From the NCBI RefSeq assembly GCF_041361465.1, contig NZ_JBGKAC010000002.1:496001-560000 (forward strand): a DNA stretch of 64,000 bases. Reading direction: 5' to 3'. The position numbers were made by a program, and so were the translations under genes. The notes below the pieces were generated by a model. That model worked only from the letters and a program-made list of their open reading frames with translations. It was not told the DNA's origin and searched no databases. This DNA is from Halobaculum sp. MBLA0143. GTDB lineage: Archaea > Halobacteriota > Halobacteria > Halobacteriales > Haloferacaceae. Shown in pieces: positions 8,959 to 57,539 of the stretch. The stretch's first letter is position 1. Each line of letters starts with the position of its first letter.

Positions 8959-9011
8959 GTTGCGGGGCGACCGAGGCGTCCGTCGGCGACCGATTTCGAC
9001 TCTCCGGGTAA

Positions 9012-9141
9012 CGAGACACCCGGTACTGGCTGTCTGTCTGGCCTCGACCGACGAGACACCCGGTACTGGCTGTCCGTCTGGCCTCGACCGGCGAGACATC
9101 CGATACTGGCTGTCCGTCTGGTCTGACCGACGAGACACCCA
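9012..9141 (+). repeat. Tandem 40-bp repeat, about 3.3 copies
   Basis: Three successive units of 40, 40 and 39 bp, each starting CGAGACACCCGGTACTGGCT (third unit CGAGACATCCGATACTGGCT), plus an 11-bp partial fourth. They are non-coding and sit in the 399-bp gap between the kinase and the RND exporter. Copies differ at only a few positions, so the expansion is fairly recent. The unit differs from the parA-linked 13-bp repeats, although it also contains CTGTCTGTCTGG. Confidence 0.85.
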
Positions 9142-9240
9142 GTGTGAAGACGCCCCGCCTCGTTCCGTCTCCGACGTCTCTCGAAGCGAAGACACCTCTC
9201 GACGACACTACTCTGCGATTCGAGACGACCCCTTCTCCGA

Positions 9241-9267
9241 TCGGGTCGGTGTGCTGACCCGACCGGC
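9241..9267. terminator. Hairpin between kinase and exporter genes
   Basis: CGGGTC and GACCCG arms separated by GGTGTGCT can form a short GC-rich stem-loop in the gap before the exporter. There is no T-run after it, so a role in termination is uncertain. Confidence 0.3.
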
Positions 9268-9357
9268 GTCTGCGTTGCGGGCACCGACACAGACGGGGGT
9301 CGGGGTGTATCCACGAAGTGGCCGGCGCACCTCCACAGGTGGCCGGCGATACACACC

Positions 9358-11874: not shown

Positions 11875-11916
11875 ACGGGACGGCACCCGGGACGCCGCCC
11901 GTCTACCTCACACCCA

Positions 11917-12060
11917 TCAGGTCTCGAACAGCATCACCACCCCGACGGTAGCCCCGCCGTGTCGGAGGTAGTACCCACCCCGGTCGCCGTCGTGGCGCGG
12001 GAGTTCCGCGAGCGCGTCGTCGACACGACAGACTGTGCGTCTCCGGACCTGGACACTCGG
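11917..12060 (-). pseudogene. Possible C-terminal gene fragment
   Basis: In the gap between the exporter and the methyltransferase the minus strand reads DDALAELPRHDGDRGGYYLR followed by HGGATVGVVMLFET and a stop. Codon bias and composition are haloarchaeal. No start codon is seen and a TAG interrupts the frame near 12070, so this looks like the surviving tail of a deleted gene. I do not recognise the family. Confidence 0.4.
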
Positions 12061-12134
12061 TGGCTCTGTCTAGTCACTGTCTGCGTGAGCCGTCTCGCCG
12101 GTCGAGAACGTTCGCGTGGTGAACGCCCTCTCTC

Positions 12135-13127
12135 TCAGTTCTTCAACACGAGCACGTTCTGGTGGACCATCGACGGCACGAACGAGAACGGGTAGCCGTA
12201 GACGTGGAGTTCCTTCGAGGAGTCGTACCACACCAGATTCGCCTTCAGCGTGTAGCCCACCTCCTCCAGCGCGTTCCCGAGATCAGCAGACAGCGTGTGG
12301 TATCGTTCCTCGCGGTACATGTCGCCGATGAACACGACGGCGTAGCGGCCGTCGGCGAGCACGCGCTGGAACGCCCGGAAGCGCTCGCGCATCTCCGCCA
12401 GCCAGGTCTCGCGGTCGCGGACGGGGCTGTCACCGTCGAACGCCCCGAGTTTGCTCTCGCGGGTCTCGGCCTCGTTGCGGGTCTGTTCCACCCGGTCCAT
12501 GTTCCAGTACGGCACGTCCGTCAGCAGGAGGTCGACGGCGTCGTCCGCCACGTCGTCGACGAGATCCAGACAGTCGCCGTGTCGAAACTCCTGTTCGGCC
12601 AGCGGGGCGGCGCCGCGGCCGGCGCGGTCGGTGTTCTCGCGTTCGAGTACGGTCTCGTACACGTCGATCCACTCCGCGCCGATCTCGAATCCGACGGCGT
12701 CCCGGAGGCCAGTCCCCTCGTGTTCGGCGAGACTGGCACCCAAGAGCGTGCCGCCGACGCCGGCGAAGGGGTCGAGCACGCGTTCGCCGGACTGGCTGAA
12801 CCGCTCGATCAGCTCCCGACACAGCCTGGGGGGTTTCTGGCCGCCGTGTTGGCTCCGGAGGTCGTGTTGGAGGTCCGGGGGGTGCTGTCGTTCGAGCACG
12901 GACTTGGTGGCGTACTTCCACTCGCGCCCGGTGAGGTCGTTCAGATCGTTGCGCTCGTCGTAGACCCCGCGTCCCTCGACGTAGCGCTGGTGGTCCGCCA
13001 GGTCGTCCGTGTGGACCACTTCGCCGTCTTCGACCGGGAGCGCCTCCGACTCCGCCCGCTCGCGGTCGAACTCCCCGTCGTCGGTCGTGAACAGACGAGC
13101 CTGTCTGTGACGCTCCTCGTCGGCCAT
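12135..13127 (-). CDS. Orphan DNA (or nucleic-acid) methyltransferase
   Basis: A 330-residue SAM-dependent methyltransferase. The SAM-binding motif I is seen as LDPFAGVGGTLLGASL (about residues 115-130) and the catalytic motif IV as LLLTDVPYWNMDR (about 200-212), a variant of (D/N/S)PPY in which valine replaces the first proline. Motif I precedes motif IV. A helical N-terminal region (ATKSVLERQHPPDLQHDLRS) and the C-terminal VWYDSSKELHVYGYPFSFVP match haloarchaeal solitary DNA methylases with a DPFxGxG core. ATG 13127 was chosen because the upstream codons are not acidic and lack constraint. No restriction gene is adjacent, so an epigenetic or orphan role is likely. It diverges from the toxin remnant at 13180. 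Confidence 0.8.
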   Translation of the reverse strand: MADEERHRQARLFTTDDGEFDRERAESEALPVEDGEVVHTDDLADHQRYVEGRGVYDERNDLNDLTGREWKYATKSVLERQHPPDLQHDLRSQHGGQKPPRLCRELIERFSQSGERVLDPFAGVGGTLLGASLAEHEGTGLRDAVGFEIGAEWIDVYETVLERENTDRAGRGAAPLAEQEFRHGDCLDLVDDVADDAVDLLLTDVPYWNMDRVEQTRNEAETRESKLGAFDGDSPVRDRETWLAEMRERFRAFQRVLADGRYAVVFIGDMYREERYHTLSADLGNALEEVGYTLKANLVWYDSSKELHVYGYPFSFVPSMVHQNVLVLKN

Positions 13128-13179
13128 CCGGTGGTGCGTCGGGCCGTGGCGGGAAGTGCGTGGTGACTCCGACGGGGAG

Positions 13180-13302
13180 ATGCAGAGGAGACACGTCGGG
13201 CAGTACGAGCGGGGTGCGGTCACCGACCACCTCCGGGAGATGGCGGCCGAAGACGAGCGGCTCGAAGAGAGTCACCGCGACGACGCGGCCGGCACCCGAT
13301 GA
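13180..13302 (+). CDS. Short antitoxin-like protein
   Basis: A 40-residue acidic ORF ending EDERLEESHRDDAAGTR. Its TGA overlaps the ATG of the PIN-domain remnant (ATGA), the usual arrangement of a vapBC-type antitoxin-toxin pair. It is shorter than normal antitoxins and has no clear DNA-binding part, so it may be the C-terminal, toxin-binding part of a truncated gene. The antitoxin role rests only on position. Confidence 0.5.
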   Translation: MQRRHVGQYERGAVTDHLREMAAEDERLEESHRDDAAGTR

Positions 13303-13633
13303 CGGAACTCGTCTTCGACACCGAGCCGCTGGTGGCGTACCGCTACGACGAACCGGGAGCCGACGCCGTTACCGAGCGGCTCCAGGCTGTCGGGCGCGGC
13401 GAGGCGACCGCCGCGACCTGCGTACTCTCCGAGGGTACGGCCTGAGTGTCGAGACGCCGGACTGGAACACCGCTGCCGAGATCGAGGGGGCGGGCGGGAT
13501 CTCGTCGGGCGACGCCTACGCCGCCGCGCTCGCGCTCGACCGCGACGCGACGCTCCTCGTCGGCCCCGACCCCGCGTTCGTCGATCTCTCGGTCGCCCTG
13601 GACGTGACGCGGGTTCGTGACGATCCGGTCTGA
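13299..13633 (+). pseudogene. PIN-domain toxin (VapC-like) with internal deletion
   Basis: From ATG 13299 one frame gives MTELVFDTEPLVAYRYDEPG to CVLSE, the N-terminal half of a PIN ribonuclease with its first acidic residue in FDTEPL. It then hits TGA at 13443. In another frame the C-terminal half follows at once: YGLSVETPDWN, then SGDAYAAALALDRDATLLVG and PDPAFVDLS with the later catalytic aspartates, ending at 13633. The join at about 13432 drops roughly 25-30 codons and shifts the frame. Intact relatives are about 130 residues. The toxin is therefore dead, which fits loss of selection on the small antitoxin-like gene before it. Confidence 0.75.
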
Positions 13634-13855
13634 ACTGATCGGCCGCTCACGTCTCGCCGGTGAGAAGGTCACCCGGAACGACTGCGACGACAGCCGGGTC
13701 CCCGAGCGTGGCGGCGGCGCAGACAGACACACCCGGAAGACGGCGTTCTGCACTTCCAGACTGGGTGTCACCGTCGATGCCTGTAGCCGAACGAGGTCGT
13801 TGTGTTAGAAACAAAATATTTAGGCATAAGTACTCATCTAGGGTAAGTTTGAGGT

Positions 13856-15154
13856 GTGTTGCTACCTGACGATCTCCGTGTGACCGACAATCGACACGAG
13901 CGCGCAGAGCCGTTGTTGATCGAGTGGGTGGCCGAGCGCCTGCGGTTCGACCGTCTCGCCGCGGCGCTGCCGGGCGACCCGTACCCGCCGTACCTCCTCG
14001 TCGCGGTCGGGCTGTTCGTGGAGTACGGTGTCCTTGACGTGTACAACCACTTCGTCACGGGGAATTCCACACCACTGAGTAACCCGAGCACGCTCCTGAT
14101 CGGTGTCGGAATAATTATGGCAGTCGTCGGGGTCAGACGGCTGAGCGAGGCCTACGGTAATGTAGTCGACGACCTCGTCGAATTGGGCCGTGACGACGCC
14201 GCTCCAGACGCCGGCGACGAACTGTTCACACCGATTCGGACGGTGCGGCGCTGGCTCTGGCCGGGTGAAGACGCTCGGGGTGACGGTGGAGAGGTGCCCG
14301 CGGACGCGCGGGGGACGCCGACAGAGACCGGGCTATTCCCGACGAGCGTCCGGTCGTTTCGCCGGCGGCTGGGATCTCCATCAAGAGAGTCCTGCAGCGA
14401 TGCGACGTCGTTTGTCCCACTCGTGCCAATGTGGTACAAGATCGCTGCGTACGGATTCGGCCTCGCCGTGTTCTATTACAATCTCATCTTTTATATCCGC
14501 TTTGGAGAGATCGTTACCGTCGAAGGTTCGGCCGTCGCTTTGACTGGGACCTTCTTATTATTCCCGCTCGTCTACACTCCCCTAATCGTTGATGTCGCGG
14601 TCTTGTGCCTCGGGATCAGTCTCTTCCTCCCGCGCCGAATCGTCCGTGCGGACCCGAGCCTGTTCTACCACGACCCACGGAACCTGGGTGGCCTCGGCAG
14701 CGTCGGTACGGTCCTGCGGCGATCGTACCTACTGTACACGGTTGGACTACTGGCGTACGTCGGTGTGTTGTACAGTCGCTTCTTATTCACATCTATCCCG
14801 ACACCGTACCCACCGCCCGGCCCGCTACTCACGCTTCTGTTCTCGGTCCTCTGGGGTGTCGGCGCTGCCGTCGTCGGTTACTCCGTCTACCGGATTCACA
14901 CGTTCATGAAGGCGGATAAGGAACACCGGCTCGACGAACTCGAAGCGGCGGCCCGTCGTCGCGTCGAGTCGTCGGGGGACACGTACACGGAGCCGGAGCT
15001 GAGCCCCGAGGAGTCGGCGACGCTCCAGCGCCGGATCGACCGCGTGAAGAACACCCGCACCTACCCGTTCGGCGCGGCCGCGTCGCTCCGAATCGGCCTC
15101 GGCGTGTTGCTCCCGCAGGCGTTGAAGCTCGTGCTCGAAGAACTGTTCCCGTGA
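13856..15154 (+). CDS. Polytopic membrane protein of unknown function
   Basis: A 432-residue membrane protein that I do not recognise. Hydrophobic helices lie near residues 47-65 (YLLVAVGLFVEYGVLDVY), 80-97, 195-215 (IAAYGFGLAVFYYNLIFYI), 222-248, 290-308 and 325-345. A hydrophilic loop at about 110-185 is Arg- and Gly-rich, and the C-terminal cytoplasmic part (350-420) is charged and helical (EHRLDELEAAARRRVESS). A final short hydrophobic stretch ends the protein. The start is GTG 13856 (TTG 13859 is possible). An AT-rich box (AAAATATTTAGG) lies about 40 bp upstream. Codon use in the middle third is less GC-rich than in its neighbours. It may be a sensor or transport subunit; nothing decides this. 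Confidence 0.75.
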   Translation: MLLPDDLRVTDNRHERAEPLLIEWVAERLRFDRLAAALPGDPYPPYLLVAVGLFVEYGVLDVYNHFVTGNSTPLSNPSTLLIGVGIIMAVVGVRRLSEAYGNVVDDLVELGRDDAAPDAGDELFTPIRTVRRWLWPGEDARGDGGEVPADARGTPTETGLFPTSVRSFRRRLGSPSRESCSDATSFVPLVPMWYKIAAYGFGLAVFYYNLIFYIRFGEIVTVEGSAVALTGTFLLFPLVYTPLIVDVAVLCLGISLFLPRRIVRADPSLFYHDPRNLGGLGSVGTVLRRSYLLYTVGLLAYVGVLYSRFLFTSIPTPYPPPGPLLTLLFSVLWGVGAAVVGYSVYRIHTFMKADKEHRLDELEAAARRRVESSGDTYTEPELSPEESATLQRRIDRVKNTRTYPFGAAASLRIGLGVLLPQALKLVLEELFP

Positions 15155-43431: not shown

Positions 43432-44265
43432 TCAGTCGTCGGCGGGCGTGCCGGACCCCGCCTCGCGCTGTGAGGTCGTGATCGTCCGCTCGTTGTCGGC
43501 GACCCACCGGAGGAGCAGGAACGCGAAGACGTACTTCGCCAGCACGTCCAGCGCGGAGTAGGCCCACGAGGTGAGGCCGACGGACTGGATCACGGCCAGC
43601 CCCTCGATCCCGAGCGCCCAGACGATCGGGTAGCCCAGCCAGAGGACGACCGTGAGGATCCGGAGCGTGTCGAAGATCTCGCCGGTGCCCGCTGCGGCGG
43701 CGGAGTCGGCCCACTCGGTCAGCAGGGCGTACAGGACCACCACGAAGAACGCACAGCTCACGGCGTAGAACAGCCACCGGACGGCGTACGACGACGTGAC
43801 GAGCGCGGCCGCGAGGCCGGTGACACACATCCCGATGTCGGCCGCGATCACGGTGAACAGACTCCCACGGTCGACGTCGGCCAGGAGACCGAGCGCGAGC
43901 AGGATCATCGGCGTCGACAGCGCCCAGGTGAGGTACCGACCCCACTGGCTGAGCACCTCCTCGCCCGCCAGCGCGTGACCGGCCGGCATCTCGATCAGTC
44001 CGACCGTCAGCCCGGAGGCGAGCCCGAGATAGCTGGAGATCGACACCAACGGGATCATCAGCGTCGCTCCCCAGATCAGCTTCGTCCGGCCGTCCGTGAT
44101 GTTGCGACCCATGTACACGAACAAGAGGATCGACAGCCCCGCTAAAGCGATGTTCACCCACAACGAGGAACTCAGTAACACGTCGTCTCTGATCTGTGAG
44201 AACACGTCCGACTGTGTCGCCTGTTGGAGTAGCACTGCTGCGGATACTGGTTCGATTGTCGTCAT
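43432..44265 (-). CDS. hop: Halorhodopsin, light-driven chloride pump
   Basis: A 277-residue seven-helix retinal protein. Helix C reads RYLTWALSTPMILLALGLLA, with the Thr-Ser-Thr-type chloride motif (TWALSTP) in place of the Asp of proton pumps. The retinal-binding lysine is in helix G (ALDVLAKYVFAF), and GLAAALVTSSYAVRWLFYAV and LTVVLWLGYPIVWALGIEGL match halorhodopsin helices D-F. It pumps chloride inward across the cell membrane in light. ATG 44265 is supported by a TATA box (GTTTAAGTATCC) about 27 bp upstream. No retinal synthesis or bat-type regulator gene is near. It lies alone and ends 84 bp after the MFS gene's convergent stop. Confidence 0.93.
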   Translation of the reverse strand: MTTIEPVSAAVLLQQATQSDVFSQIRDDVLLSSSLWVNIALAGLSILLFVYMGRNITDGRTKLIWGATLMIPLVSISSYLGLASGLTVGLIEMPAGHALAGEEVLSQWGRYLTWALSTPMILLALGLLADVDRGSLFTVIAADIGMCVTGLAAALVTSSYAVRWLFYAVSCAFFVVVLYALLTEWADSAAAAGTGEIFDTLRILTVVLWLGYPIVWALGIEGLAVIQSVGLTSWAYSALDVLAKYVFAFLLLRWVADNERTITTSQREAGSGTPADD

Positions 44266-44645: not shown

Positions 44646-46292
44646 TCAGACGTGACGTTGCAGGAACTGCTCAACTTCGTCAATAGAGCGTCCGCGATGG
44701 TACATCTCTTCAACGATCCGTCGCCCGTGATCACGCTTGTCGTAGCAGTTGAGCCGCTCAGGCCCATCTGGTGTTCTGTGATCCGCCGCGCGTCGCTCAA
44801 CGCGCTCTTCTACATCACAGTAGTCGTCAATTTCCAACGCAGCTGCCGGGAGGTCCACCACGTCCGCAACCACGTCGCTGTCGAAGTAGTTCTCAATCTC
44901 ACGCCTTTTCAGAATGTGACACGGCACGTCGGCATTTGCGGCTCGGTTACGCAGCTCCACGGACTCTTGCTTGGGATCCTCGGCCCCCTCCTTTCGATCA
45001 CTGTCAAGGAGAATTGCAAAGTTTTGGTTGATTTTCTTTAACTTCGCCGGATCACAGTGCTGCATATTGCCCGTTCCACCCAGGGGAAGAATCGTGACCC
45101 CACGATTGTGCCAGTCGTCGATCACCTCCTCTGCAATTCGTTTGAGAATTTCCACGTCGGACTGCCCTTCGACGTAAATGACGAAATCGCTCTGTAGAAT
45201 ATCACTATTACGAGCACCAATCTCGCGGACTGCCTCAAACCCTTCGTCGGCCACCCGTTCGAACTCTGTTGCACCGTCTTCGCGCCGCGTGACATAAATG
45301 TCCGCGTTGGCGCGGTTGTCGATGAACACCTGTGAGTGGGTCGTGAGGACCACTTGACCGCCCCCGCCAGCAATCTCTCTGAGGGCATCGAGCATCTTCC
45401 GCTCGGCTGACGGGTGGAGGAAGTTCCCTGGCTCCTCGAACAAGAGGATGTACCCTTCACTCACCTCGAAGTCGACGTACGCCTGCATCATCGACAACTG
45501 TAGAAGACTCCCGACACCAGACCCGCGCTCTCGAACGTCGACGCTCTCAGAGAGGTGTTCGTCGTGGAGTTCGATACTCGGTGTAATTGCTTTGTCGACG
45601 CGGATGTTGCCAGGAGACATCTCCACCTGCTCGATACTCTCCAGATGTGTCTCAAGATAGTTTGTCAGATGACTCCCGACTTTTTCAGTCGTCTCGGTTA
45701 GAGACTCTCGAAGCTCGGCCTTCTTGTTGGCGACCTCATTGTCGAATCCACCAGACTCTAGAATCGGGGAGAGCAGCTTGTCCATGTGGGTGCCGCCCTT
45801 GAGTTTCGTCTCCTCGCTCACGTCTCGCTCCGCGAAGATGGGGACTGGCTCTGGGAAGAAGTCCCAGACGCGATCACGAGATTTAGCCTTCGTGAGGCGG
45901 GTGTCATCCTCATTGATGGCACCCTTCGAGAACGTCTCGCCGTTCAGGTAGGTCTCTGAGCCTGGAGTTCTTCCGCTCCGACGGCTGAACTCCCGAAGAA
46001 CGGTTACTGTGTCGTTGTCTTCCGGAACGTACTCCTCCCGGAGCAGACCACAGAGTTCCTCCGGAAGTCGAACCTCGGCCTCGAAGCAAATCTCCTCGGC
46101 CTCTTGCATGTGAAAATGCTCGTCGTCGGGTTTGCCACAGTCGAGAAACAGTTCCAGTGCTTCAAGAAACGACGACTTCCCGGCGTCGTTCTTCCCGATG
46201 AACGTCGTCATGTCTCCGAGTTCCATGTCACCGGAGTCCTTGATAGGCTTGTAGTTCTTGACGCGGAAGGTCTCGATGTCGATGACGGACAT
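44646..46292 (-). CDS. OLD-family ATP-dependent nuclease (AAA + TOPRIM)
   Basis: A 548-residue protein with an ABC/SMC-type ATPase domain (residues 1-345) and a TOPRIM domain (about 360-480). Walker A is GKNDAGKSS (33-41), a signature-like LSMMQAY region precedes Walker B YILLFEEPGNFLHP, and the H-loop is in VVLTTHSQVFID. The TOPRIM core shows the catalytic glutamate in VIYVEGQSDVEIL and the acidic pair in ILLDSDR. This is the layout of OLD nucleases, including GajA of Gabija; no UvrD-like GajB gene is adjacent. It would act against phage or foreign DNA. ATG 46292 has a TATA-like ACAAAAGTAATACC about 27 bp upstream. Confidence 0.87.
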   Translation of the reverse strand: MSVIDIETFRVKNYKPIKDSGDMELGDMTTFIGKNDAGKSSFLEALELFLDCGKPDDEHFHMQEAEEICFEAEVRLPEELCGLLREEYVPEDNDTVTVLREFSRRSGRTPGSETYLNGETFSKGAINEDDTRLTKAKSRDRVWDFFPEPVPIFAERDVSEETKLKGGTHMDKLLSPILESGGFDNEVANKKAELRESLTETTEKVGSHLTNYLETHLESIEQVEMSPGNIRVDKAITPSIELHDEHLSESVDVRERGSGVGSLLQLSMMQAYVDFEVSEGYILLFEEPGNFLHPSAERKMLDALREIAGGGGQVVLTTHSQVFIDNRANADIYVTRREDGATEFERVADEGFEAVREIGARNSDILQSDFVIYVEGQSDVEILKRIAEEVIDDWHNRGVTILPLGGTGNMQHCDPAKLKKINQNFAILLDSDRKEGAEDPKQESVELRNRAANADVPCHILKRREIENYFDSDVVADVVDLPAAALEIDDYCDVEERVERRAADHRTPDGPERLNCYDKRDHGRRIVEEMYHRGRSIDEVEQFLQRHV

Positions 46293-46680
46293 GCTAGCTT
46301 GGTCCACCGCTTCTGGTATTACTTTTGTCCTGAGAGATGGTAGCTGTGGTCTGCAATTTTCTCGATTGCAGTCTGATTAGCCGACGAAATAGAGGGGAAA
46401 AATTTCCAGGCACTCGGTCGGTTTGAGGCATCGAAAGCGGCTATGTGGTTGTTCCCTGTGCTGATCTCGACTAAGCATATTACTTGCGCTAACAGTCCAA
46501 TCGCGCCCGGCAGCACTCACCTCCGTGACGCCGGCGATGGGATGCGCACATCTACGAGATGGTGGTCACGGACCTCTCGCGGCGCCCAGGGCTCACCGCA
46601 ACCAACGAGGTGATTAATACGCAGAGAGCGGCGACCCTCCACCAACGTTCACCCTCCGAGACTGTGCGAAACCCTCTTAC

Positions 46681-46847: not shown

Positions 46848-47237
46848 TCACTTCCTGGCGAACGCGTGGGCCGCACCGACTCGGTTCGGCGACTCGACGA
46901 ACAGGTTCCCGACCGGGAGGTACGCCGTTCCGCGGTCGCCGTCCACGTCGACACTGAGCACGTCGGCGTCGACGAGTCGACCGTCGAACACGAACTGGAC
47001 GACCTGCGGCCCGTCCAGCGAGTCCGTCTCCCGGAGTGTCTCGTGGAGGTCGTCGACTACCGTCTCTCGCTCCGAGTCCGCGACCGCGTACAGCAGCGTC
47101 TCGAGCCCGGTGACCGTCACTCGAGTCTCCACCGGTCGGTCGTGGGCGACCCGGCGGAAGAAGCTCAGGGCGCCCAGTTCTGCGTCGGTCGACTCGATGG
47201 GGTCCGTCACGAGGTTGTAGCCCGGTCGGAGCGACAT
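46848..47237 (-). CDS. Small last gene of the BREX-like operon
   Basis: A 129-residue acidic protein with alternating strands and helices (GALSFFRRVAHDRPVETRVT, VQFVFDGRLVDADVLSVDVD, GTAYLPVGNLFVE). The ATG lies one base after the stop of the DUF1156-type methylase gene, so it is translated with it. No family recognised. Its constant place in the operon suggests a structural or adaptor subunit of the defence complex; it is not obviously a DUF3780 protein, the partner I would have expected in the related anti-phage module. Confidence 0.7.
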   Translation of the reverse strand: MSLRPGYNLVTDPIESTDAELGALSFFRRVAHDRPVETRVTVTGLETLLYAVADSERETVVDDLHETLRETDSLDGPQVVQFVFDGRLVDADVLSVDVDGDRGTAYLPVGNLFVESPNRVGAAHAFARK

Positions 47238-47238
47238 C

Positions 47239-49878
47239 TCAGAACTGCTCCAGGCTCATCGCCATCACGTTCTCGTACCGTTCGTCTCCGGTCGCGTCCG
47301 CCAGGAACTCCGCGAGAGCTACCAGATCGTCCGATCGCCACTCTCGGAGGAACTCCACGGTGTTCTGGTCCGTCACGTAGCGGTGGTGGAGGTAGTGGAC
47401 CTTGTCCACGTCGAGGAGATTGTCCGCGCCGAGATCGTCGCCGTCGGCGTGTAGCTTCCGTTCGACGTGGTCGACGCGCTCGTCGGCCGGAACGGGCACC
47501 TTCTGTCCGTCGACGTCTCTCACGAGCCGTTCGTCCTCGAAGTCGGCCAGACTGAGGTTCTTCGCCAGGAGCTGTTTGTTCAGGGCGTCGTACGGCTCCG
47601 GGCCACGGTCGACGAACGCCGCGAACGCCTCGCTCGTCGTGTCGATACTGCTCGGGAGGTCGACAGCCCCCGACAGCACCTGCTCGATGACGCCGTCGAC
47701 AGTCGCCAACGCGTCGTCGATCCCAGCCCGCTCGCCGTCGTCGTACACCTCGGGGTAGTGGCGGGAGTAGTAGTACAGACACTTTCCGCGGAGGATCACC
47801 CCCAGATCTGCCTTCGAGAGGTCGTCGTGGCGCGCCTGTTCTTCGTCTGCCATCTCCTGGAGCTCGAAGAACAGGTCGCGCTGTAGCTCCGAGAGGGTCG
47901 TCCGTTCGTCGACGCGTTCCTTGTTGGCGTACACGAGAATATCGTACTCCGCGTTGTCGAGCTCGGAGATGTGAGGGTTGTTCGGCATCTCCGACTGGAC
48001 GGGATACGCGCCGGTGATCGTGAACCCACTGTCGACGAGTGCCGCCAGGATCACCGACCACGCCTCGTTCTCGTTGTGGTGGTAGGTGAACACCATCTCC
48101 CCGTCGTCCTTCAGTACCCGGTGACACTCCGAGAATACGTTCGACAACGACTCCACGAAGAACGACTCGTCTTTGTTCGCGCTGTTGTTGGCGACGATCT
48201 CCCGCGCCTTCGGCACCAACTCCGGTCGGAACTCCTCGTAGTCGTCGGCCAACGCCTCCCGCAGCCAGACGTAGAAGTAGTCCGACAGCTCCGAGTACTG
48301 GACGTTGTCGTAGTACGGCGGGTCCGTGATCACGTAGTCGACGGACTCGTCCGGCTGTTCGAGTCGCTCGGCGGTCTGGCAGTGGAGTCCCGCCACCCGG
48401 TCTTCCGAGACGGACTCGTCGGAGACGTGAAACTGCTCCACGTCGCCGGTCTCGTAGTTCTTCACCTTCTCGAAGGGCTCCTGGCAGAACTGTTTGCCGT
48501 CGTGGAGTTTGTCGAAGAAGTTCCTGATCGCAACAGAGTTGCTCTCGTGGTTCAGTGGATTCGGTTCAACCGGCTGAACCCGAGGGACGAATGCGTGCCT
48601 GTTGAACGTATTCATACCCTTCAGATCACGGTAGTGCCACTTCGTCAGCTTCGAGTTGTACTCCAGACAGTTTGACACCCCCGTCACCAGAAACTCCGAC
48701 ACGTTCTGTGCGTCCGCGTCCTCGAACGTGCGGTCGGCCACCGCGATCGCCTTCTGCAACAACGTCCCGAACGTGAGGAGGTGCCGTTCGGTGAACAGCT
48801 CCGAGAACCGATCGTAGTTGTAGTTCAACAACGCCTGTGTCTTGTCACCCGACGGAATCTCCTGCTCGGGAATCGGCAACTCCTCGCGCACCGCCGTGAG
48901 TCGCTCACGTGCCTCCGCGACCCGCTCGGCGTCGCGGTCGTCGAACTCCTTCATTTGCTTGGTGCCATGCGGGTCGACGTACTGGAGCGCGAACCGCTCG
49001 AACGTCGGCTTCTCGTCGTGGCGTTGCAGCGTCTCTTTCACGTCGTGTTTGTGCCCGTTCGAACAGGTGTACTTCCCGTAGCCGTACGTCCCGTCGTTCG
49101 GATCGAACTGGTGGCCGCAGTTGGGACACACCTCGTTGCCGTCTTCCTCGACGGTCACCGTCTCGCCGTCGACCGTCACCGTCGTCCCGGCGTCCAGCCC
49201 CTTCCCGCGATCTTCGAGTTCGACTATCCGGTCGTCACAGTCCTGATTCGGACAGTAGAGGTAGCCGGACATCGTCTTCTTCGTCTTGGCGAGTTGGTAC
49301 CGAGGGAACAGTTGGACGTCCTCGCCACACTCCAGACAGGGGATTCGCTGTGACTGGAAGTAGTACAGCACCTCACACTCCTGGCCAGTCTCGGGGTCGA
49401 CGGTCGTGTAGAGTTCGTCCAGTTCCTCGCGGGTCTCCGCGAGGATGCGGTCGAACTCCCGTTCGAGCACGTCCAGGTCCACCTCGTCGGTGGACTTCTT
49501 CTCGACCCACCACGCGACCGGGTTGAGTTCGTAGCCGATCACGTCCGCGCCGAGTCGGTTCAGCTCGACGAGCGTCGTCCCGCCGCCGGCGAACGGGTCC
49601 AACACCGTCGCGTCCGTCTCCATCCGGTCCGCGTCGGGCGTGATGTACAGCCCGTCGTGGCTCCCGCTCGACCGCTCGGTGAGGATGTCCGTCCTGTCGA
49701 CCGTATCGTCGGTGAGTGCCGCGAGCCCGAGCATCCGGAACGTCGACCCCGGGCGACGCGCCCACCACTTGTGCAGTGAGTAGACGGGTCGATACACGTC
49801 GCGTCGGTACGTCTCCTTCTCTGCCAGTTCGTCCATCAGCCGCAAGGGGAGTTTGTCCCAGGAGTCTGTCGTGTTCAC
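47239..49878 (-). CDS. DUF1156-type DNA methyltransferase (PglX-like role)
   Basis: An 879-residue adenine-type DNA methylase. The N-terminus (WDKLPLRLMDELAEKETYRR, YSLHKWWARRPGSTFRMLGL) is the DUF1156 signature. SAM motif I is LDPFAGGGTTLVELNRLGAD (about residues 92-111). Two zinc ribbons follow (CLECGED with CPNQDCD; CPNCGHQF with CSNGHKH). The catalytic motif is VITDPPYYDNVQYSELSDYF (about residues 520-540). In related systems this enzyme marks self DNA while partner proteins block phage. ATG 49878 follows the PglZ-like stop by 6 bp. Third gene of the minus-strand operon. Confidence 0.88.
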   Translation of the reverse strand: MNTTDSWDKLPLRLMDELAEKETYRRDVYRPVYSLHKWWARRPGSTFRMLGLAALTDDTVDRTDILTERSSGSHDGLYITPDADRMETDATVLDPFAGGGTTLVELNRLGADVIGYELNPVAWWVEKKSTDEVDLDVLEREFDRILAETREELDELYTTVDPETGQECEVLYYFQSQRIPCLECGEDVQLFPRYQLAKTKKTMSGYLYCPNQDCDDRIVELEDRGKGLDAGTTVTVDGETVTVEEDGNEVCPNCGHQFDPNDGTYGYGKYTCSNGHKHDVKETLQRHDEKPTFERFALQYVDPHGTKQMKEFDDRDAERVAEARERLTAVREELPIPEQEIPSGDKTQALLNYNYDRFSELFTERHLLTFGTLLQKAIAVADRTFEDADAQNVSEFLVTGVSNCLEYNSKLTKWHYRDLKGMNTFNRHAFVPRVQPVEPNPLNHESNSVAIRNFFDKLHDGKQFCQEPFEKVKNYETGDVEQFHVSDESVSEDRVAGLHCQTAERLEQPDESVDYVITDPPYYDNVQYSELSDYFYVWLREALADDYEEFRPELVPKAREIVANNSANKDESFFVESLSNVFSECHRVLKDDGEMVFTYHHNENEAWSVILAALVDSGFTITGAYPVQSEMPNNPHISELDNAEYDILVYANKERVDERTTLSELQRDLFFELQEMADEEQARHDDLSKADLGVILRGKCLYYYSRHYPEVYDDGERAGIDDALATVDGVIEQVLSGAVDLPSSIDTTSEAFAAFVDRGPEPYDALNKQLLAKNLSLADFEDERLVRDVDGQKVPVPADERVDHVERKLHADGDDLGADNLLDVDKVHYLHHRYVTDQNTVEFLREWRSDDLVALAEFLADATGDERYENVMAMSLEQF

Positions 49879-49884
49879 GCGTGA

Positions 49885-50811
49885 TCACCTCGTGTCGATC
49901 CGGAGCACGGGCGTCAGCGCCTCCGGAATGCTCAACCCGCCGTGAGCGACTCGTTTCGACGCGCCACGGGTCGTCGGTCTGTAGTGACCGGTGACCACGT
50001 AGCGCCCGCCGGTGCGTCTGATCACGTTCGCCTCTCGCAGTCGATCGTAGGCGTACCCCGCCTCGACGTCCGTGTACCGCCCGCCGACGGCGTCCGCGAG
50101 CGCCGTCTCGTCGTCGTCAGACAGTCGGAACGGGTTCCTGCCGACGAAGTTGACGTAGCCGTGGTCGGAGCTGACGAGAAACTCCTCGTGGACGCTCTCG
50201 GTGACGACTCGCTCCAACAACCCCTTCGTGTCCGCGTAGATGTCGGCGAAGCGCTCGACGGAGTAGTTCCCCTTCGTCGACGCTTCGAGCCGCCGGTCGG
50301 GGTGGCGGGTCCAGACGAACGCCGGGTCCGTCCCGGGGAGCTGTGGCACGTCCGTGTCCCCGACGTACCGGAAGTCGTCCCGGGAGACGGCAGACGGGCT
50401 CCGTGCGTCGAACCACGCCCGACAGACGAACTTCGTCTCGGAGGGCAGCCGTTCGACACCTGCCCAGTCGAGCGACACCGTCCAGTCGTGGTCCGCCCGG
50501 AGGTCGCGTTCGAGCGCGAACCCCTCGCGGAGACTCAGTCCGTCCATCACCACGCCGCAGCCGTGGTCGAGACTCCCGATCGGGTGGTCGCCCGCCGCCG
50601 CCTCGAGCGTGTCGTACAGGTCGACACCCTGGTCGGCGAGCAGGTGCTCCAACTGTCGTGTCCGGTACTCCGAGTCGCCCAACTCGCGTTCCCTCGTCGC
50701 AGACGCCGGCCGCCAAATCCGCCCGAGACAGTCGAACACGCCGTCGAGCACGGATTCGGAGTGGATCAACGACGCCACCCCGTCCGCGTCGAACAGTGCG
50801 TCGTCGGTCAC
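49885..50811 (-). CDS. Compact PglZ-like (alkaline phosphatase superfamily) protein
   Basis: A 308-residue protein. GTG 50811 overlaps the stop of the DUF499-type gene (GTGA), so translation is coupled. The phosphatase-fold signals are GCGVVMDGLSLREGFALERD, which matches the first PglZ metal/nucleophile segment (VDGLR-like), and FLVSSDHGYVNFVG, which matches the late (T/S)xDHG metal site. The C-terminal 60 residues look like a winged helix (YAYDRLREANVIRRTGGRYV). Normal PglZ of BREX is about 800 residues, so this is a much reduced form. A role in defence is inferred from the operon. Confidence 0.72.
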   Translation of the reverse strand: MTDDALFDADGVASLIHSESVLDGVFDCLGRIWRPASATRERELGDSEYRTRQLEHLLADQGVDLYDTLEAAAGDHPIGSLDHGCGVVMDGLSLREGFALERDLRADHDWTVSLDWAGVERLPSETKFVCRAWFDARSPSAVSRDDFRYVGDTDVPQLPGTDPAFVWTRHPDRRLEASTKGNYSVERFADIYADTKGLLERVVTESVHEEFLVSSDHGYVNFVGRNPFRLSDDDETALADAVGGRYTDVEAGYAYDRLREANVIRRTGGRYVVTGHYRPTTRGASKRVAHGGLSIPEALTPVLRIDTR

Positions 50812-53606
50812 CGCTCGACCTCCAGCGTCACTTCGAACGTCGCGTCCTCGGGGGTCGACAGCCCGAGCAACACCTCGTTGAACAGGCGATCCCTGGCGAC
50901 GGGCTCCCCGAACTCGATGTCGAGCGTCTCGTCGGTCTCGACCGTGTCGACGACGCCGTCGGTCCCGAGTCCGCGCGTCTCTACCGCCGCCGCCGAGAGC
51001 GTCCCCGAGTACCCGACCTCCGCACGGTGTACCTCGGCGGACACACTCACCTCTCGTTCCAGCGTGTCGATCAGCGTCGGCAGGTCGGTCGCCTCCAACC
51101 GTCCGTACGCCGGAACCCGTTCGAGAGTCTGCTCGTCGTCCGTGCCGTCGGCCCCACCGAGTCCGTCGAGGAGTTCGTCCACGTCTCCGTCTTCCACCTC
51201 GACGGTGCCGTCCTCGAGGTCGGTGACGTCGAACTCGAAGCCACACGCACAGGTCGTCCCGTCGAGCCGGTCGCCACACTGTGGACACTCGAAGGCAGTC
51301 TGCTCCGGCGACCCACCCGAGACGCCGACGGTGCCGCCGGACCCCCCGCCCGTCGACGTCGACCCGCCGCCGGACTCGCTCGGGGTCGTCGTGTCGATCG
51401 TGATCGTCTCTCCGCCTCCGTCGTCCGGGTCGTCGACGTACTGCTCGTGGACGATCGTGGTCTCGCTCCCGAGACTCCCGACCGACTCGCCGAAGTAGTT
51501 CCCGACCTTGATACGCTCCTCTCGACAGAGCCGGTCGATCGCATCTTCGAGGTCGGACTCGTCTGTGAGCGTCGGGAGCGTCTCCGAGCGGTAGAAGTCG
51601 TTGCGGAGGAACCGGTACTGGACACCCCCCTGCTCGTGTTCGACGTTCTCGATCACCGCGCCCTCTAGCTCCGAACGGCCGGGAGCGACCACCTCCCGGA
51701 CGGCCTCGTAGTAGTCGCCGTCGCTCGACAGTTCCTGCGGGAACAGCCCTCGCTCCGTCGGAACGTGTACCTCGCCGTACTTGTCCGACACCCGGTCGAG
51801 TAGGTTCTGGTGGTTCTGTTCGTGGACGTCTTCGAACCCCTCTGGGAGCGCTCGTCGTTCCTGCCGCAGCAGTTCCTCTCCGGCGACCACCTTCCGTGCG
51901 AGCTCCCGGATCCCAGTGTTGGTGTCGACGCTCCCCCCGCTCTCCGGCGTCACCAGGACGATAGTGTTGCTGTACTCTCGCTCCTGGCCCGTCGTCAGTG
52001 CCTCGAACTGCTCGTCGTAGCTCCGGTGTGCCGACAGCGAGACGACCAGCTTCAGACGCTTGGTGTCCGGAACGTCCTGTTCCGTGTTGACCGGGTCGAG
52101 AACGAACACGTCGTTCTGGCCGTCGAACAGTTCCTCGGAGACGAGCCGTTCGACTCGGTGGATCGCGTCGTCCCTGTGGACGTCTTCCGCCTTCTTCTCG
52201 ATTCGCGCCGCGGGGTTCTCGTCCGTGTCGAACGCGTACTCGCCGTTGATCCGGAAGACGTGCCAGGCGTGCCCGTACACCCGGTTCTTGAACGTCTGAA
52301 CTATCTTGTGTGCATTTCCCCCCTTCCGGAGCGTCCCCATCAACATCCGGTGTCTGTTCGCGCCCTCCTCGCCGCCGCGCGCGAGACTGTGGAGCAACAC
52401 CGTGTTCAACAGCTCTTCCACGTACTCGTCGAACGTCCGGTCCTCGCCGTCGCCCGCCGGCTCCCCCAGTCTGTGGTAGTCGTTGAGGTACTTCCCGACG
52501 AGTTCGCCGTCGACGAACCGGAACCACCCGGAGAACCCGACGACGTCGACGTCTCCGGTGAGGATCAGATCCGTCTCGTGGTAACAGTCCGCCAGGAGTT
52601 TCGTCAGGAGTTCGAGCAGACCGCGTGCGTCCTGGTTCCCCTGTTGTTCGGCGAACTTGTCCATCAGCGTGTCGAGCGTGGTCGGGTGGAAGGGGTAGTA
52701 CCGCTCGACCCGCGACTCCATCTCCTGGTAGTCCGACAGTTCGACCTGTTTGTTGTTCCTGTAGACGTCCGTGTACTCCTCGGCGAGCGCCGTGAGTCCC
52801 TCCGGGTCAGTTACCTCGCCGACGAGTCGGTGGAGGATGAACCGGATCTTCTCGTCACGACTCTGTGAGAGGTCGTGTCGGAAGGGGTTCGTCCGTGGGA
52901 GAACGTCCGTGACCTCGGGTTCTTCGAACAACAACGAGACGTAGACCGTGAGTGGCGTGTCCTCGCGCCCGGCCGCTTCGAGCAGATTCTGGAGGAACGC
53001 CAGGTTGTCCGCCGTGTAGTCGACTCGACTGCTCATCCCGAACCAGCGCTCGAACTCGTCGACGAAGATCGCAGTCGGCCGGTCGCCGACGGCGTCGCGG
53101 ATCTCCCGTGCGCCCGGGGGGTCGCCGTCGACGTCCAACTCGTCGAGCCCCAGGTAGTCGGCGACCGTGGTGTCGAGCCGTTCGTAGTCGGTATCGAGAT
53201 TCAGCATCTGGAGCGCCGCCGTCCGGGTGTCGCTCGGCAGCGTCGCGTCGATTCCGTGTTCGTCGAGCCAGTCGCGGGCGGCCGCCGGCGCGTCGAGCAG
53301 GTGGTACACCGCGAGTTCGACGTGGCTCTTCCCGCTGCCGTACTCGCCCCCGACGACGTGTGCGCCGTCGGTGACGTTGGAGCTCGGGTCGAACTTCTCG
53401 GCCGTCTTCTCGACGATCCTCTCCAACGTCCGCGTCGGGTACGTGATCCCGAGAATCCGCCGTGCGTCCCGTTCCGGCGACGCCGTGTCGTCGTAGACGT
53501 TGTACAGGTTCACCTCGTCTAGGAGGTCGGCCGTGGTGATGCCGCCCGACTCGTCGCGTATCTCGTCGGACGGCTCGATCAGCTCCGAGATTCGTCTTGC
53601 CGTCAC
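50808..53606 (-). CDS. DUF499-type ATPase (BrxC/PglY-like)
   Basis: A 932-residue P-loop ATPase. Walker A is GGEYGSGKSHVEL (about residues 75-87), preceded by YPTRTLERIVEKTAEKFDPS, and Walker B is AIFVDEFERWFG (about 160-171). Large helical middle region (VYVSLLFEEPEVTDVLPRTN, YYPFHPTTLDTLMDKFAEQQ), then a zinc ribbon near residue 775 (CPQCGDRLDGTTCACGFEF) after a Gly/Ser linker. DUF499 proteins pair with DUF1156 methylases in anti-phage modules and correspond in role to BrxC/PglY. GTG 53606 is the operon's first start, giving TARRISELIEPSDE. The flexible linker and C-terminal ribbon are notable. Confidence 0.87.
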   Translation of the reverse strand: MTARRISELIEPSDEIRDESGGITTADLLDEVNLYNVYDDTASPERDARRILGITYPTRTLERIVEKTAEKFDPSSNVTDGAHVVGGEYGSGKSHVELAVYHLLDAPAAARDWLDEHGIDATLPSDTRTAALQMLNLDTDYERLDTTVADYLGLDELDVDGDPPGAREIRDAVGDRPTAIFVDEFERWFGMSSRVDYTADNLAFLQNLLEAAGREDTPLTVYVSLLFEEPEVTDVLPRTNPFRHDLSQSRDEKIRFILHRLVGEVTDPEGLTALAEEYTDVYRNNKQVELSDYQEMESRVERYYPFHPTTLDTLMDKFAEQQGNQDARGLLELLTKLLADCYHETDLILTGDVDVVGFSGWFRFVDGELVGKYLNDYHRLGEPAGDGEDRTFDEYVEELLNTVLLHSLARGGEEGANRHRMLMGTLRKGGNAHKIVQTFKNRVYGHAWHVFRINGEYAFDTDENPAARIEKKAEDVHRDDAIHRVERLVSEELFDGQNDVFVLDPVNTEQDVPDTKRLKLVVSLSAHRSYDEQFEALTTGQEREYSNTIVLVTPESGGSVDTNTGIRELARKVVAGEELLRQERRALPEGFEDVHEQNHQNLLDRVSDKYGEVHVPTERGLFPQELSSDGDYYEAVREVVAPGRSELEGAVIENVEHEQGGVQYRFLRNDFYRSETLPTLTDESDLEDAIDRLCREERIKVGNYFGESVGSLGSETTIVHEQYVDDPDDGGGETITIDTTTPSESGGGSTSTGGGSGGTVGVSGGSPEQTAFECPQCGDRLDGTTCACGFEFDVTDLEDGTVEVEDGDVDELLDGLGGADGTDDEQTLERVPAYGRLEATDLPTLIDTLEREVSVSAEVHRAEVGYSGTLSAAAVETRGLGTDGVVDTVETDETLDIEFGEPVARDRLFNEVLLGLSTPEDATFEVTLEVER

Positions 53607-53802: not shown

Positions 53803-54201
53803 TCACTCCACGGCGTCGACGCTGTCGTGCGCGAGGTACGCCGTGAGGTCGGTCGCGGAGACGAGCCCGACGACACCGCCGTCGACGACCGGGAGGTGTT
53901 GTACGTCGGCGGCAGCCATCCGGCCGGCGGCGCTCGCAATCGGGGTGTCGACTCCGACCGTCTCGACGTCCGTCGTGGCGTAGTCCGTCACGGGCGCGTC
54001 GGGGTCCGTCTCCCCGGCGACAACGTCCGACAGGAAGTCGGTCGCTGTCACGACCCCGACGAGCTCGTCGTCGTCGGTGACCAGCAGCGAGCCGATCTCT
54101 TCTTCCAACAGCGTCGCGGCGGCGTGGCTCGCGGTCGCGTCCGGCGAGACGGTCACGACCGGGGTCGTCATCAGACTCTCGATTGGCGTCGTCTCTGACA
54201 T
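53803..54201 (-). CDS. CBS-pair protein
   Basis: A 132-residue protein formed by two CBS motifs: ESLMTTPVVTVSPDATASHA to LLVTDDDELVGVVTATDFL, and VTDYATTDVETVGVDTPIAS to LPVVDGGVVGLVSATDLTAY. Stand-alone CBS pairs bind adenine nucleotides or SAM and regulate partner proteins. ATG 54201 starts MSETTPIESLMTTP. It lies between the defence operon and the photoreceptor operon and diverges from htrII. Nothing in the context identifies its target. Confidence 0.88.
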   Translation of the reverse strand: MSETTPIESLMTTPVVTVSPDATASHAAATLLEEEIGSLLVTDDDELVGVVTATDFLSDVVAGETDPDAPVTDYATTDVETVGVDTPIASAAGRMAAADVQHLPVVDGGVVGLVSATDLTAYLAHDSVDAVE

Positions 54202-54362: not shown

Positions 54363-56702
54363 TTGTCAGAACGGATGCAGGGGTTGATCGCTCGTATCAG
54401 GGGACAGTACGCGGCAAAGTTGCTCGTCGTATTCGCACTGATCGCGGTTCTCGTCGGGGGGTTCTCGTTGGGGGCAGCACAGGCGGTGTCCGACACAGCA
54501 GCGTCCGACGCCCGAGCGGGGCTGTCTGCGACGGCGACGGACCGTGCGACGGCAGTCGAGCAGTGGGCCGCTGGGATCGAGGCGGAGACAGCCAGGCTGG
54601 CGACGCGGCCGGCGGTGACCGAGGGGTCGACGGCGGAGATCGAGGCGGTGTTGTCGCGGTACGGGACAGACACGTCGCCGGGCGTCGTCGGGGTCGTCTA
54701 CCTCGCGGACGGTGACGTGGTCGCGTCGACGGACGGTGTGACACTCCCGACCGCGGTCGCGGACGCCGCCGCCGGGGGCCAGGGGTACACGGAGTCGTTC
54801 CAGCAGAGTGACCGTAGGCTCGTCGGCTACGCCCACGCCGCCGGCGACGGAACGATCGTGACCGTCGTCGACCCGACGCGGGCCGTGCCGGCGGCCGGCG
54901 GCGACGCACAGCGGACCCTCCTCGTCGACGACACGACCGTCGTCGGGGCCGTCGGCGCCGACGCCGCCGGCGCGACGCTCGCGTCCGGGGTCGACCTCGA
55001 TACGAGCGGCACGAACGGTGCGGACGGCGGCGCAGCCGACCACGACGGGGCGACGGTCCAGCGCGTCACCGGCGACATCCTCGTGGACGACACGGCGGGC
55101 GGCGCGGGCGACGCGAGCGCTGCGGGCGACACGAGCGGCGCGAGCGGCGACCAGTTCGTCGCGGCAGCGTCGGTCGGCGACGCGCCGTGGACGCTCGTCG
55201 TGGCCGGCGCGACACAGACGGGCACGGGGAGTCTCGCCGTCTCCGCCATCGGCGGCGTGGCGTTGCTCGCGCTCGTGAGTCTCCTCCTGTTCGGGAGCAC
55301 CGTCGGGTCGACGACGGTGATCCAGACGTCGGACCTGGAGCACCGGGCGGGCCGCGTCGCGGACGGGGAACTCGACGTGGAGTTCCCGACCCGGCGGGCA
55401 GACGAGTTCGGTGTCGTCCGGGACAGCATGGACCAGATGCGGAAGGGACTGATAGAGAAGATCGAAGCGGCAGAGTCGGCACAGACGGACGCCGAACGGG
55501 AGCGACAGCGTGCAGAGACGCTGTCGACGGCAGTCGGAGAGATCGCCGAAGACTACGCGAGCGAACTAGAGCGGGCCGCGGACGGTGACCTCACCGTTCG
55601 GGTGGACGTGACCGGGTCGGCGGACGACACGGACGCAGACGCCATCCAGGATATGCGACGGATCGGGGAGGCGGTCAACACACTCCTCGCGGAGTACGAG
55701 TCGCGGGTGCGCGAGGTGTCGGCGTTCGCCGACGACGTGGCGACGGCGAGCCGCGACATGACGGACGCCACCGAGGAGGCGACGGCGATCTCCAGTGAGA
55801 TGTCCGAGCAGTTGAGTGACATCCAGACGGACGCCAGCCAGCAGCGCGACGAGATCGCCGGCCTGGAGTCGGAGATCGACCAGCTGTCGGCGACGGCAGA
55901 GGAGGTGGCGGCGACGGCTTCCGAGGTGGAGACGGTGTCGCAGACGGCTGCGGAGGCGGCCCGCGAAGGGGCGTCGTCGGCCGAACGGGCGCTGTCCGAA
56001 CTGGACGAGACGGTCGCCACCATCAACGACACGGTCGGTGCGATCGACGAGCTGGCCGACCGAGTCGATCAGGTGACGGCCGTCGTCGAGACCATCGCCG
56101 GTATCGCCGACGAGACGGACATGCTGGCAGTCAACGCGACTATCGAGGCGGCCCACGCCGGCAGCGGGAACGGCGGCGACGGGTTCGCCGTCGTCGCCGA
56201 GGAGGTCAAGAGCCTCGCAGAAGAGACGAAGGAGTCGGCCGCAGAGATCGAGTCACAGTTGGAGGCGATCCGCGAGCAGACGGCGACGGCCGTCGAGTCG
56301 GCCGACGAGGCGGACGCGACGGTGAGTGAGGCGTCCGAGACGATTCAGACCGCCCTCGGACGGTTGGACGATATCCGCGACAGCGTCGAACAGACGGACG
56401 ACAGCGTCTCCGAGATCGCCCGGGCCATCGAGGAACAGGCGGAGTCGACACAGACCGCCTCCAGCGTCGCCCGCGACGTGCGCGAGATCAGCGAACGCAC
56501 CGCGGCGGACGCCGACGAGTCCGCCGCGGCCGCGAGCGAGCAGACGGAGATCATCCGCACGGTCGCGGAGCTGTCCGACAGTGTCGCCGACGACGCCGAC
56601 GATCTGACGGCGTCGCTGGCAGATCTCACTGTCTCCGACGGGGACGGGACGACGAGCCGCACGGGCCGCGCCGGCTCTCCGGTGACCGTAGACGACGACT
56701 GA
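54363..56702 (+). CDS. htrII: Sensory rhodopsin II transducer
   Basis: A 779-residue methyl-accepting transducer next to sopII. TM1 is about residues 19-38 (LLVVFALIAVLVGGFSLGAA), followed by an extracellular domain (40-290) that ends in a Gly/Ala/Asp-rich stretch (DASAAGDTSGASGDQ). TM2 is SAIGGVALLALVSLLLFG, then HAMP (RRADEFGVVRDSMDQMRKGL) and a long coiled coil with the MCP hairpin tip (MLAVNATIEAAHAG, FAVVAEEVKSLAEE) and Glu-rich methylation helices. The large extracellular domain suggests extra chemosensing, as in Halobacterium HtrII. The start is TTG 54363 or ATG 54375. It relays light signals to CheA/CheW. Confidence 0.92.
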   Translation: MSERMQGLIARIRGQYAAKLLVVFALIAVLVGGFSLGAAQAVSDTAASDARAGLSATATDRATAVEQWAAGIEAETARLATRPAVTEGSTAEIEAVLSRYGTDTSPGVVGVVYLADGDVVASTDGVTLPTAVADAAAGGQGYTESFQQSDRRLVGYAHAAGDGTIVTVVDPTRAVPAAGGDAQRTLLVDDTTVVGAVGADAAGATLASGVDLDTSGTNGADGGAADHDGATVQRVTGDILVDDTAGGAGDASAAGDTSGASGDQFVAAASVGDAPWTLVVAGATQTGTGSLAVSAIGGVALLALVSLLLFGSTVGSTTVIQTSDLEHRAGRVADGELDVEFPTRRADEFGVVRDSMDQMRKGLIEKIEAAESAQTDAERERQRAETLSTAVGEIAEDYASELERAADGDLTVRVDVTGSADDTDADAIQDMRRIGEAVNTLLAEYESRVREVSAFADDVATASRDMTDATEEATAISSEMSEQLSDIQTDASQQRDEIAGLESEIDQLSATAEEVAATASEVETVSQTAAEAAREGASSAERALSELDETVATINDTVGAIDELADRVDQVTAVVETIAGIADETDMLAVNATIEAAHAGSGNGGDGFAVVAEEVKSLAEETKESAAEIESQLEAIREQTATAVESADEADATVSEASETIQTALGRLDDIRDSVEQTDDSVSEIARAIEEQAESTQTASSVARDVREISERTAADADESAAAASEQTEIIRTVAELSDSVADDADDLTASLADLTVSDGDGTTSRTGRAGSPVTVDDD

Positions 56703-56771
56703 ACCGTACTGCACTGAACGAACTGACCGAGCGACAGACGACACACCGAAATCGAAACACGGAGACACGAC

Positions 56772-57539
56772 ATGAGCGCACACACGTCGATCATCGCAGA
56801 GAGCATCACCTACAGTATCGGAGCGTTCGGGCTGGCGGTCGGGACCATCGTCGCGCTGGTGGCGTGGCGGTTGGACGACCAGGAGACGGTGCCGTACGAC
56901 GACGCGGGGTACGCGATGCTGATCGCCATCCCGGCGCTGGCGGCACTGGCGTACGTCGGTATGCGCTTCGACACGTTCGCAATCACCACGAACGGGATCC
57001 AGATCCAGACACTGCGGTACGTCGACTGGGCGGTGACCACCCCGTTGTTGGTCGGCTACATGGCGTACGCGGCTCAGGCGGACCGCCGGACGGTCGTCGG
57101 CGTGATCGTCGCAGACCTCCTGATGGTCCTCCTGGGGTTCGTCGCCGTCCTCCAGACTGGGGTCGCCGTGTACGTTCTCGGGGGGCTGTCGACGATCGCG
57201 TACTTCTGTCTCGTCTACTACCTGTTCGGTCCGCTCGACCGGCTCGTCCGTGACCGCGGCGGCGCGGACAAGTGGGCCGTCTACGCGAAGCTGCGGAACC
57301 TCGTCGGCTTCCTCTGGTTCGCGTACCCGGTCGTCTGGGTGCTGTCGCCCCCGGCGCTCCAGGTGCTCACTCGACAGACCACGGGCGTCCTCATCACGTA
57401 CATGGACGTGGCCGCGAAGCTCGGGTTCGTCCTGATCGCCACCAACACCGCCGGCGTGTTCGACAGCCTCCTGACGGGCGACGACGACTACGATACGGAG
57501 TTGACGACCGACGGCGGCCGGGAGACCGGCGAGTCGTAG
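56772..57539 (+). CDS. sopII: Sensory rhodopsin II (phoborhodopsin)
   Basis: A 255-residue seven-helix retinal protein, 69 bp after htrII in the same orientation. Helix C carries RYVDWAVTTPLLVGYMAYAA, with the Asp counterion of sensory rhodopsins. Helix F/G parts KLRNLVGFLWFAYPVVWVLS and DVAAKLGFVLIATNTAGVFD contain the retinal lysine (AAKLG). The partner gene and the VDW-TTP motif favour SRII over a pump, which would carry DxxxxxxxD/E in helix C. It mediates blue-green light avoidance in complex with HtrII. The C-terminal 25 residues are acidic. Confidence 0.93.
   Translation: MSAHTSIIAESITYSIGAFGLAVGTIVALVAWRLDDQETVPYDDAGYAMLIAIPALAALAYVGMRFDTFAITTNGIQIQTLRYVDWAVTTPLLVGYMAYAAQADRRTVVGVIVADLLMVLLGFVAVLQTGVAVYVLGGLSTIAYFCLVYYLFGPLDRLVRDRGGADKWAVYAKLRNLVGFLWFAYPVVWVLSPPALQVLTRQTTGVLITYMDVAAKLGFVLIATNTAGVFDSLLTGDDDYDTELTTDGGRETGES

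Follow-up and report, generated by a model that had tools for sequence, protein, structure and literature searches.

A four-gene, helicase-free variant of Type-3 BR: a candidate methylase-guided antiviral cassette of haloarchaea

We have identified a compact cassette of four intact, touching minus-strand genes in Halobaculum sp. MBLA0143, at positions 46848-53606 of the window (the whole 64,000-nucleotide stretch analysed). The genes encode a DUF499-type ATPase, a standalone PglZ, a DUF1156-type methylase and a 129-aa protein, and the recurrence of the same four-gene order in 26 haloarchaeal genomes shows that the cassette does not reflect chance. It is a variant, lacking the helicase, of the newly named Type-3 BREX-related (BR) kind, and we consider it probably to be a mobile and self-contained antiviral cassette akin to restriction-modification systems, in which attack by PglZ would be guided by the methylase; its role in defence, methylation chemistry and motif, complex assembly and DNA cutting are predicted features. 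Relative to the accessible part of the Type-3 BR description (PMC12839542), the new elements are that the helicase is lacking, that the form without it is widely conserved in archaea and that methylase specificities are swapped.

Cassette layout, distribution and setting

The sequence-only reading had placed an operon of four genes with overlapping or near-touching ends at this site, and checking of the open reading frames bears this out. The ATPase gene (932 aa; 50808-53606, minus strand, GTG start) overlaps the PglZ gene (308 aa; 49885-50811, minus strand) by 4 nt, a gap of 6 nt precedes the methylase gene (879 aa; 47239-49878, minus strand), and a gap of 1 nt separates the latter from the gene for the 129-aa protein (46848-47237, minus strand). 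The earlier domain calls of a DUF499 ATPase, a PglZ-like protein and a DUF1156 methylase with two zinc ribbons are also upheld.

The BrxC/HmaC-like AAA+ ATPase matches PF04465 (DUF499) at E=3e-7 (29.1 bits, cut-off 23) and the PADLOC HmaC profile at E=1.4e-16. Its match to BREX_BrxC NF033441 (E=0.16, 10 bits, cut-off 400) indicates that it is not a BrxC of the DUF6079 type, and a search against solved structures gave no credible match. Walker A (GGEYGSGKS), Walker B (AIFVDE) and a C-terminal zinc ribbon (CPxCG...CACG) are present, and G87, G90, G92, K93, S94, D183 and E184 are invariant in the family alignment. Haloarchaeal and bacterial Type-3 BR ATPases are very far apart.

The 129-aa protein gave no credible match in profile scans, DUF3780 included, and its LYR4 matches in a profile search of solved structures were weak and treated as chance. 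Its predicted model has a pLDDT of 91.8; P-loop NTPases predominate at the top of its fold matches but are weak (Z<=4.8), and BrxB structures are absent among the fold matches listed, which proves nothing. Similarity to the small proteins of bacterial Type-3 BR loci was not significant by hhalign or hmmsearch, although hhalign with a wider archaeal profile aligned a FLRxV..LP..VxGL(D/E) stretch, below significance. The family is kept in all 26 haloarchaeal cassettes and is also detected elsewhere, in loci L091 (7.5e-17), L090 (8e-5) and L106 (1e-11). From the position and size of the gene, the protein is most likely an eroded STAND/BrxB-like adaptor, a putative counterpart of the iSTAND protein of BREX-like systems. 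Because the gene sits in this BrxB/BrxF-like iSTAND position, the earlier statement that the cassette is without BrxB is not established. On a Natronorubrum bangense plasmid (L106, 8941-15272), a DUF499 ATPase and a DUF1156 methylase accompany a 131-aa member of the small family without a PglZ, which places the small protein with the ATPase-methylase module and not with PglZ alone.

The cassette PglZ was found in 26 of 392 Halobacteriales genomes (~7%), from about 20 genera, with a weak, partial 27th match. As a survey of haloarchaeal gene order revealed, the order ATPase, PglZ, methylase, small gene is kept in all 26 loci; the flanks differ and no decay was seen. These cassettes form two clades, about 28% identical in PglZ, and a scan of named genomes returned 18 loci, all haloarchaeal. 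At least two archaeal lineages besides the haloarchaea also have all four genes (L091 and L090), and partial loci (L088 and L089) lie near contig ends or have a shortened methylase ORF. Several copies have other genes close by: a HerA-like ATPase directly follows the small gene in L090 (13681-14865), where bacterial loci have an SNF2 helicase; nucleotidyltransferase-like and HEPN-like genes, recognized by eye, lie between PglZ and the shortened methylase ORF of the non-halophilic archaeal copy L088 (1311-2026, minus strand); and a PbeA-like helicase lies immediately upstream of one cassette (L035, 3795-6548).

Plasmid copies include those of Haladaptatus, Halobacterium salinarum (pKBTZ03_58), Halorubrum lacusprofundi (pHLAC01, a clade B cassette), Haloplanus and Natrarchaeobaculum. 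H. lacusprofundi strain ACAM34_UNSW has lost pHLAC01 and is virus-sensitive, but a CRISPR locus containing ten matching spacers is gone as well (PMC10544981), and its sensitivity is therefore evidence neither for nor against a defensive role.

In the Halobaculum genome, the island that holds the cassette is flanked by a bacteriorhodopsin-family, halorhodopsin-like gene on one side (43432-44265, minus strand) and by a CBS-domain gene (53803-54201, minus strand) and a transducer/sensory rhodopsin pair (54363-57539, plus strand) on the other. In a genus mate (G704), the htrII-sopII pair and the halorhodopsin-like gene are adjacent in another order, so that the genus offers no simple, clean empty site of insertion. 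Downstream of the cassette, at a distance of about 540 bp, is a gene for an OLD-family nuclease (AAA_15 plus TOPRIM; 44646-46307, minus strand), which was rejected as a fifth component as it was found beside no relative's cassette. Given this lack of conservation, it is probably a separate defence gene within the island.

A standalone PglZ

By itself, the 308-aa protein has no Pfam match and a weak PglZ match (0.0016) in PADLOC. The profile of its family matched solved structures of BREX PglZ (9nv3, E=1.2e-10; 9zn5, 2.2e-6) and PorX (5e-6). The predicted model, of moderate confidence (pLDDT 67.9), adopts a phosphodiesterase/nuclease fold that superposes on PorX (7pv7_A) with Z 15.3 over 268 residues and on BREX PglZ (9zn5_B) with Z 13.9, against an ENPP background of 8.4. 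Residues D90, T126, D172, D216, H217 and H290 do not vary across the family, whether the protein is haloarchaeal or encoded on a bacterial plasmid. Thus, given the alignment of relatives, the fold and the residues, identification as PglZ is firm.

Thr126 lies in a PSET motif (50434-50436, minus strand) and is conserved without exception in the PglZ proteins of haloarchaea, other archaea and bacterial Type-3 BR loci. The metal ligands D216 and H217 lie in an SDHGY motif (50155-50169, minus strand) that aligns to the DHG of solved PglZ and PorX, and H290 lies in the equivalent of their HGG motif (49936-49944, minus strand). T126 and H290 are most likely the counterparts of T538 and H741 of Escherichia fergusonii PglZ and of T272 and H500 of PorX, a correspondence based on motif and fold and not on residue-level superposition. 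Together, the predicted fold and these residues are those of a putatively active standalone PglZ.

BREX PglZ cleaves plasmid and phage DNA irrespective of site and methylation and contributes to defence, and the E. fergusonii protein requires T538 for its nuclease activity (PMC11974810). By analogy, we propose that the cassette PglZ may be the effector of a methylase-guided complex. It might instead act on a signal and not on viral DNA, hydrolysing cyclic or linear oligonucleotides in the manner of PorX and so regulating the ATPase-methylase complex. The PorX PglZ domain is the closest solved relative, BREX PglZ cleaves cyclic oligonucleotides too (PMC11974810), and the cassette protein is without the N-terminal domains of BREX PglZ. 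However, neither a cyclase nor any other gene for making a signal is repeatedly found next to the cassette, and the DNA cutting and defensive contribution of BREX PglZ also speak against this alternative, which we regard as unlikely.

Relation to named systems and absence of a helicase

Three DUF499-centred BREX-related systems were recently defined (Rakesh & Krishnan, NAR January 2026; PMC12839542). In the accessible part of that description, Type-3 BR comprises a DUF499 ATPase, a standalone PglZ, a methylase that in a subset carries two zinc fingers, an iSTAND protein (in 82% of systems) and a nuclease-free SNF2/BrxHII-like helicase, and is reported from 134 archaeal taxa. Bacterial plasmid loci of Aminobacter, Ensifer and Tenderia encode an ATPase, PglZ, methylase, a protein of 165-173 aa and an SNF2 helicase, in that order, of which the set in the window corresponds to the first four genes. 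On a Citrobacter IncN plasmid, SIR2-domain and ATP-binding genes lie between PglZ and the methylase of a Type-3 BR locus (L096, 9886-12763), next to Tn7-like genes, and PglZ of this kind occurs on many Klebsiella conjugative plasmids.

The cassette resembles Type-3 BR in its DUF499 ATPase, standalone PglZ, DUF1156 methylase and small protein in the iSTAND position, as well as in gene order, which it shares with the plasmid loci of Aminobacter, Ensifer, Tenderia and Citrobacter. It differs in having no BrxHII-like SNF2 helicase and in its small protein, which is 129-132 aa versus 165-173 aa and not significantly similar. The ATPase and methylase are HmaC-like and HmaB-like, as in Hma/Type-1 BR, but there is no HmaA helicase(-nuclease), and PglZ and the small gene are present in the cassette. 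Type-2 BR (DUF499-DUF3780-DUF1156-PLD helicase) has the same ATPase and methylase families, whereas the cassette scores well under the curated cut-offs of NF042962/NF042963 (51.5 against 1200 and 127 against 1000 bits), lacks DUF3780 and the PLD/HKD helicase, and has no fifth conserved gene. With BREX (types 1-6) it shares the PglZ fold and active site, an AAA+ ATPase and an N6-type methylase (BrxXI-like, as in type 3); unlike BREX, it has a DUF499 and not a DUF6079 ATPase and a PglZ of only 308 aa, and neither BrxA (PF08849) nor BrxL (PF13337) was matched anywhere in the host genome.

These comparisons agree with the sequence-only reading in that BrxA, BrxL, DUF3780 and a helicase are all missing from the cassette. 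Its picture of a minimal variant bridging BREX and the DUF499/DUF1156 types stands as regards a compact bridging module, but the bridging type itself already bears the name Type-3 BR (PMC12839542). As Type-3 BR is described with the helicase among its core components, we file the cassette as a variant and not a member: it is a helicase-free variant of the Type-3 BR kind, set apart by the published description as far as this is accessible, and the 134 archaeal taxa reported there may include these loci.

No BrxHII-like SNF2 helicase was found in any of the 26 haloarchaeal loci or in L090 and L091. A helicase might be supplied in trans from another locus, in which case this would be a Type-3 BR system that is not functionally helicase-free. 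SNF2 helicases are common in haloarchaea, and the host replicon itself encodes another DUF1156 methylase, accompanied by a BrxHII-like SNF2 helicase (G000:C2, about 368-375 kb). However, a genome-wide search at E<=1e-10 found no HmaA-like helicase in 8 of the 26 haloarchaeal carrier genomes (95-99% complete) or in the carrier genomes G414 and G527. Additionally, no such helicase adjoins the cassette, with only a fragment 4 kb away in L037, and we judge supply in trans to be rather improbable. The long branches and unresolved backbone of a tree of archaeal and bacterial cassettes leave helicase loss versus late gain undecided.

The second methylase locus of the host (L102, G000:C2:360001-380000, especially 8170-14657) encodes a methylase of 922 aa, a helicase of 637 aa and a 405-aa protein, and is related to the PglZ-less haloarchaeal loci L106, L107 and L111. 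The same genome has an HmaC-like match at C2:387497.

Methylase specificity swaps and a proposed mode of action

The N6-class methylase matches N6_N4_Mtase (E=6e-16), HmaB (1e-42) and also PglXI, with a DUF1156 match (E=5.7e-5, 23.6 bits) slightly below the Pfam cut-off of 24. Its motifs, invariant in the family alignment, follow the alpha-type order: motif I (DPFAGGGT), a nested TRD, then motif IV (DPPYYDN). The specificity region (approximately aa 90-490; 48409-49611, minus strand) holds two zinc ribbons (C181/C184/C214 and C251/C254/C272) and is hypervariable and swapped, as judged from identity profiles of L036, L037 and L038.

In these three near-identical cassettes, the group that carries the evidence for swapping, the ATPases are 97-98%, the PglZ proteins 93-99% and the small proteins 91-98% identical, and the C-terminal 210 residues of the methylases 97-100%. 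Methylase residues 166-500 are only 45-83% identical, with the lowest values (45-66%) at residues 301-500, and in L038 the N-terminal half has been exchanged too. DNA identity inside the methylase gene runs from ~95% to 50-70% and back to 93-100%, with sharp edges. Loci L028-L030 offer weaker support, with residues 301-420 being 53-63% identical versus 83-93% in the catalytic part. Such mosaics are of the type found when restriction-modification systems change specificity, and suggest that specificity may be set by the methylase alone. As the partner proteins are almost unchanged, the target of attack is most likely recognized via the methylase, in line with what is stated for PglX in BREX (PMC11974810).

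We therefore favour methylase-guided attack by PglZ, which might work as follows. The methylase would mark host DNA with N6-methyladenine at a non-palindromic motif, which its nested recognition domain with two zinc ribbons would read, and the DUF499 ATPase, aided by the 129-aa protein in an adaptor role, would join methylase and PglZ in one complex; in BREX, BrxB:PglZ binds the AAA+ domain of BrxC in an ATP-dependent manner (PMC13326643). On unmarked incoming DNA, a site would be flagged by the methylase's own recognition domain. ATP-driven remodelling could then free PglZ, which, itself without sequence preference, would nick or cut nearby DNA and halt replication. BREX methylation requires BrxB, BrxC and PglZ besides PglX (PMC13326643), so a set of four could be enough for methylation alone, but that the cassette is a decayed or epigenetic remnant, its helicase lost, host methylation alone left and PglZ needed for methylation assembly, is quite doubtful given catalytic PglZ residues invariant across deep divergence, 26 loci without decay, a patchy, mobile distribution and specificity swaps typical of restriction.

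Under methylase-guided attack, the cassette may, more tentatively, represent PglZ-based restriction that operates with neither helicase nor BrxL, a single exchangeable methylase giving specificity for both self-marking and attack; it is perhaps the smallest self-sufficient BREX-type machine to date, and widespread in archaea. The way in which BREX blocks viruses is still not understood, in part because it involves six or more genes, and a natural four-gene form without helicase or BrxL would show the minimum parts needed for marking and attack. Halorubrum lacusprofundi, with genetic tools, the virus HRTV-DL1 and two strains that differ in carriage of the cassette plasmid (PMC10544981), is a ready test bed for the cassette. 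The methylase swaps, in turn, make it possible to test directly if target choice depends on the methylase alone.
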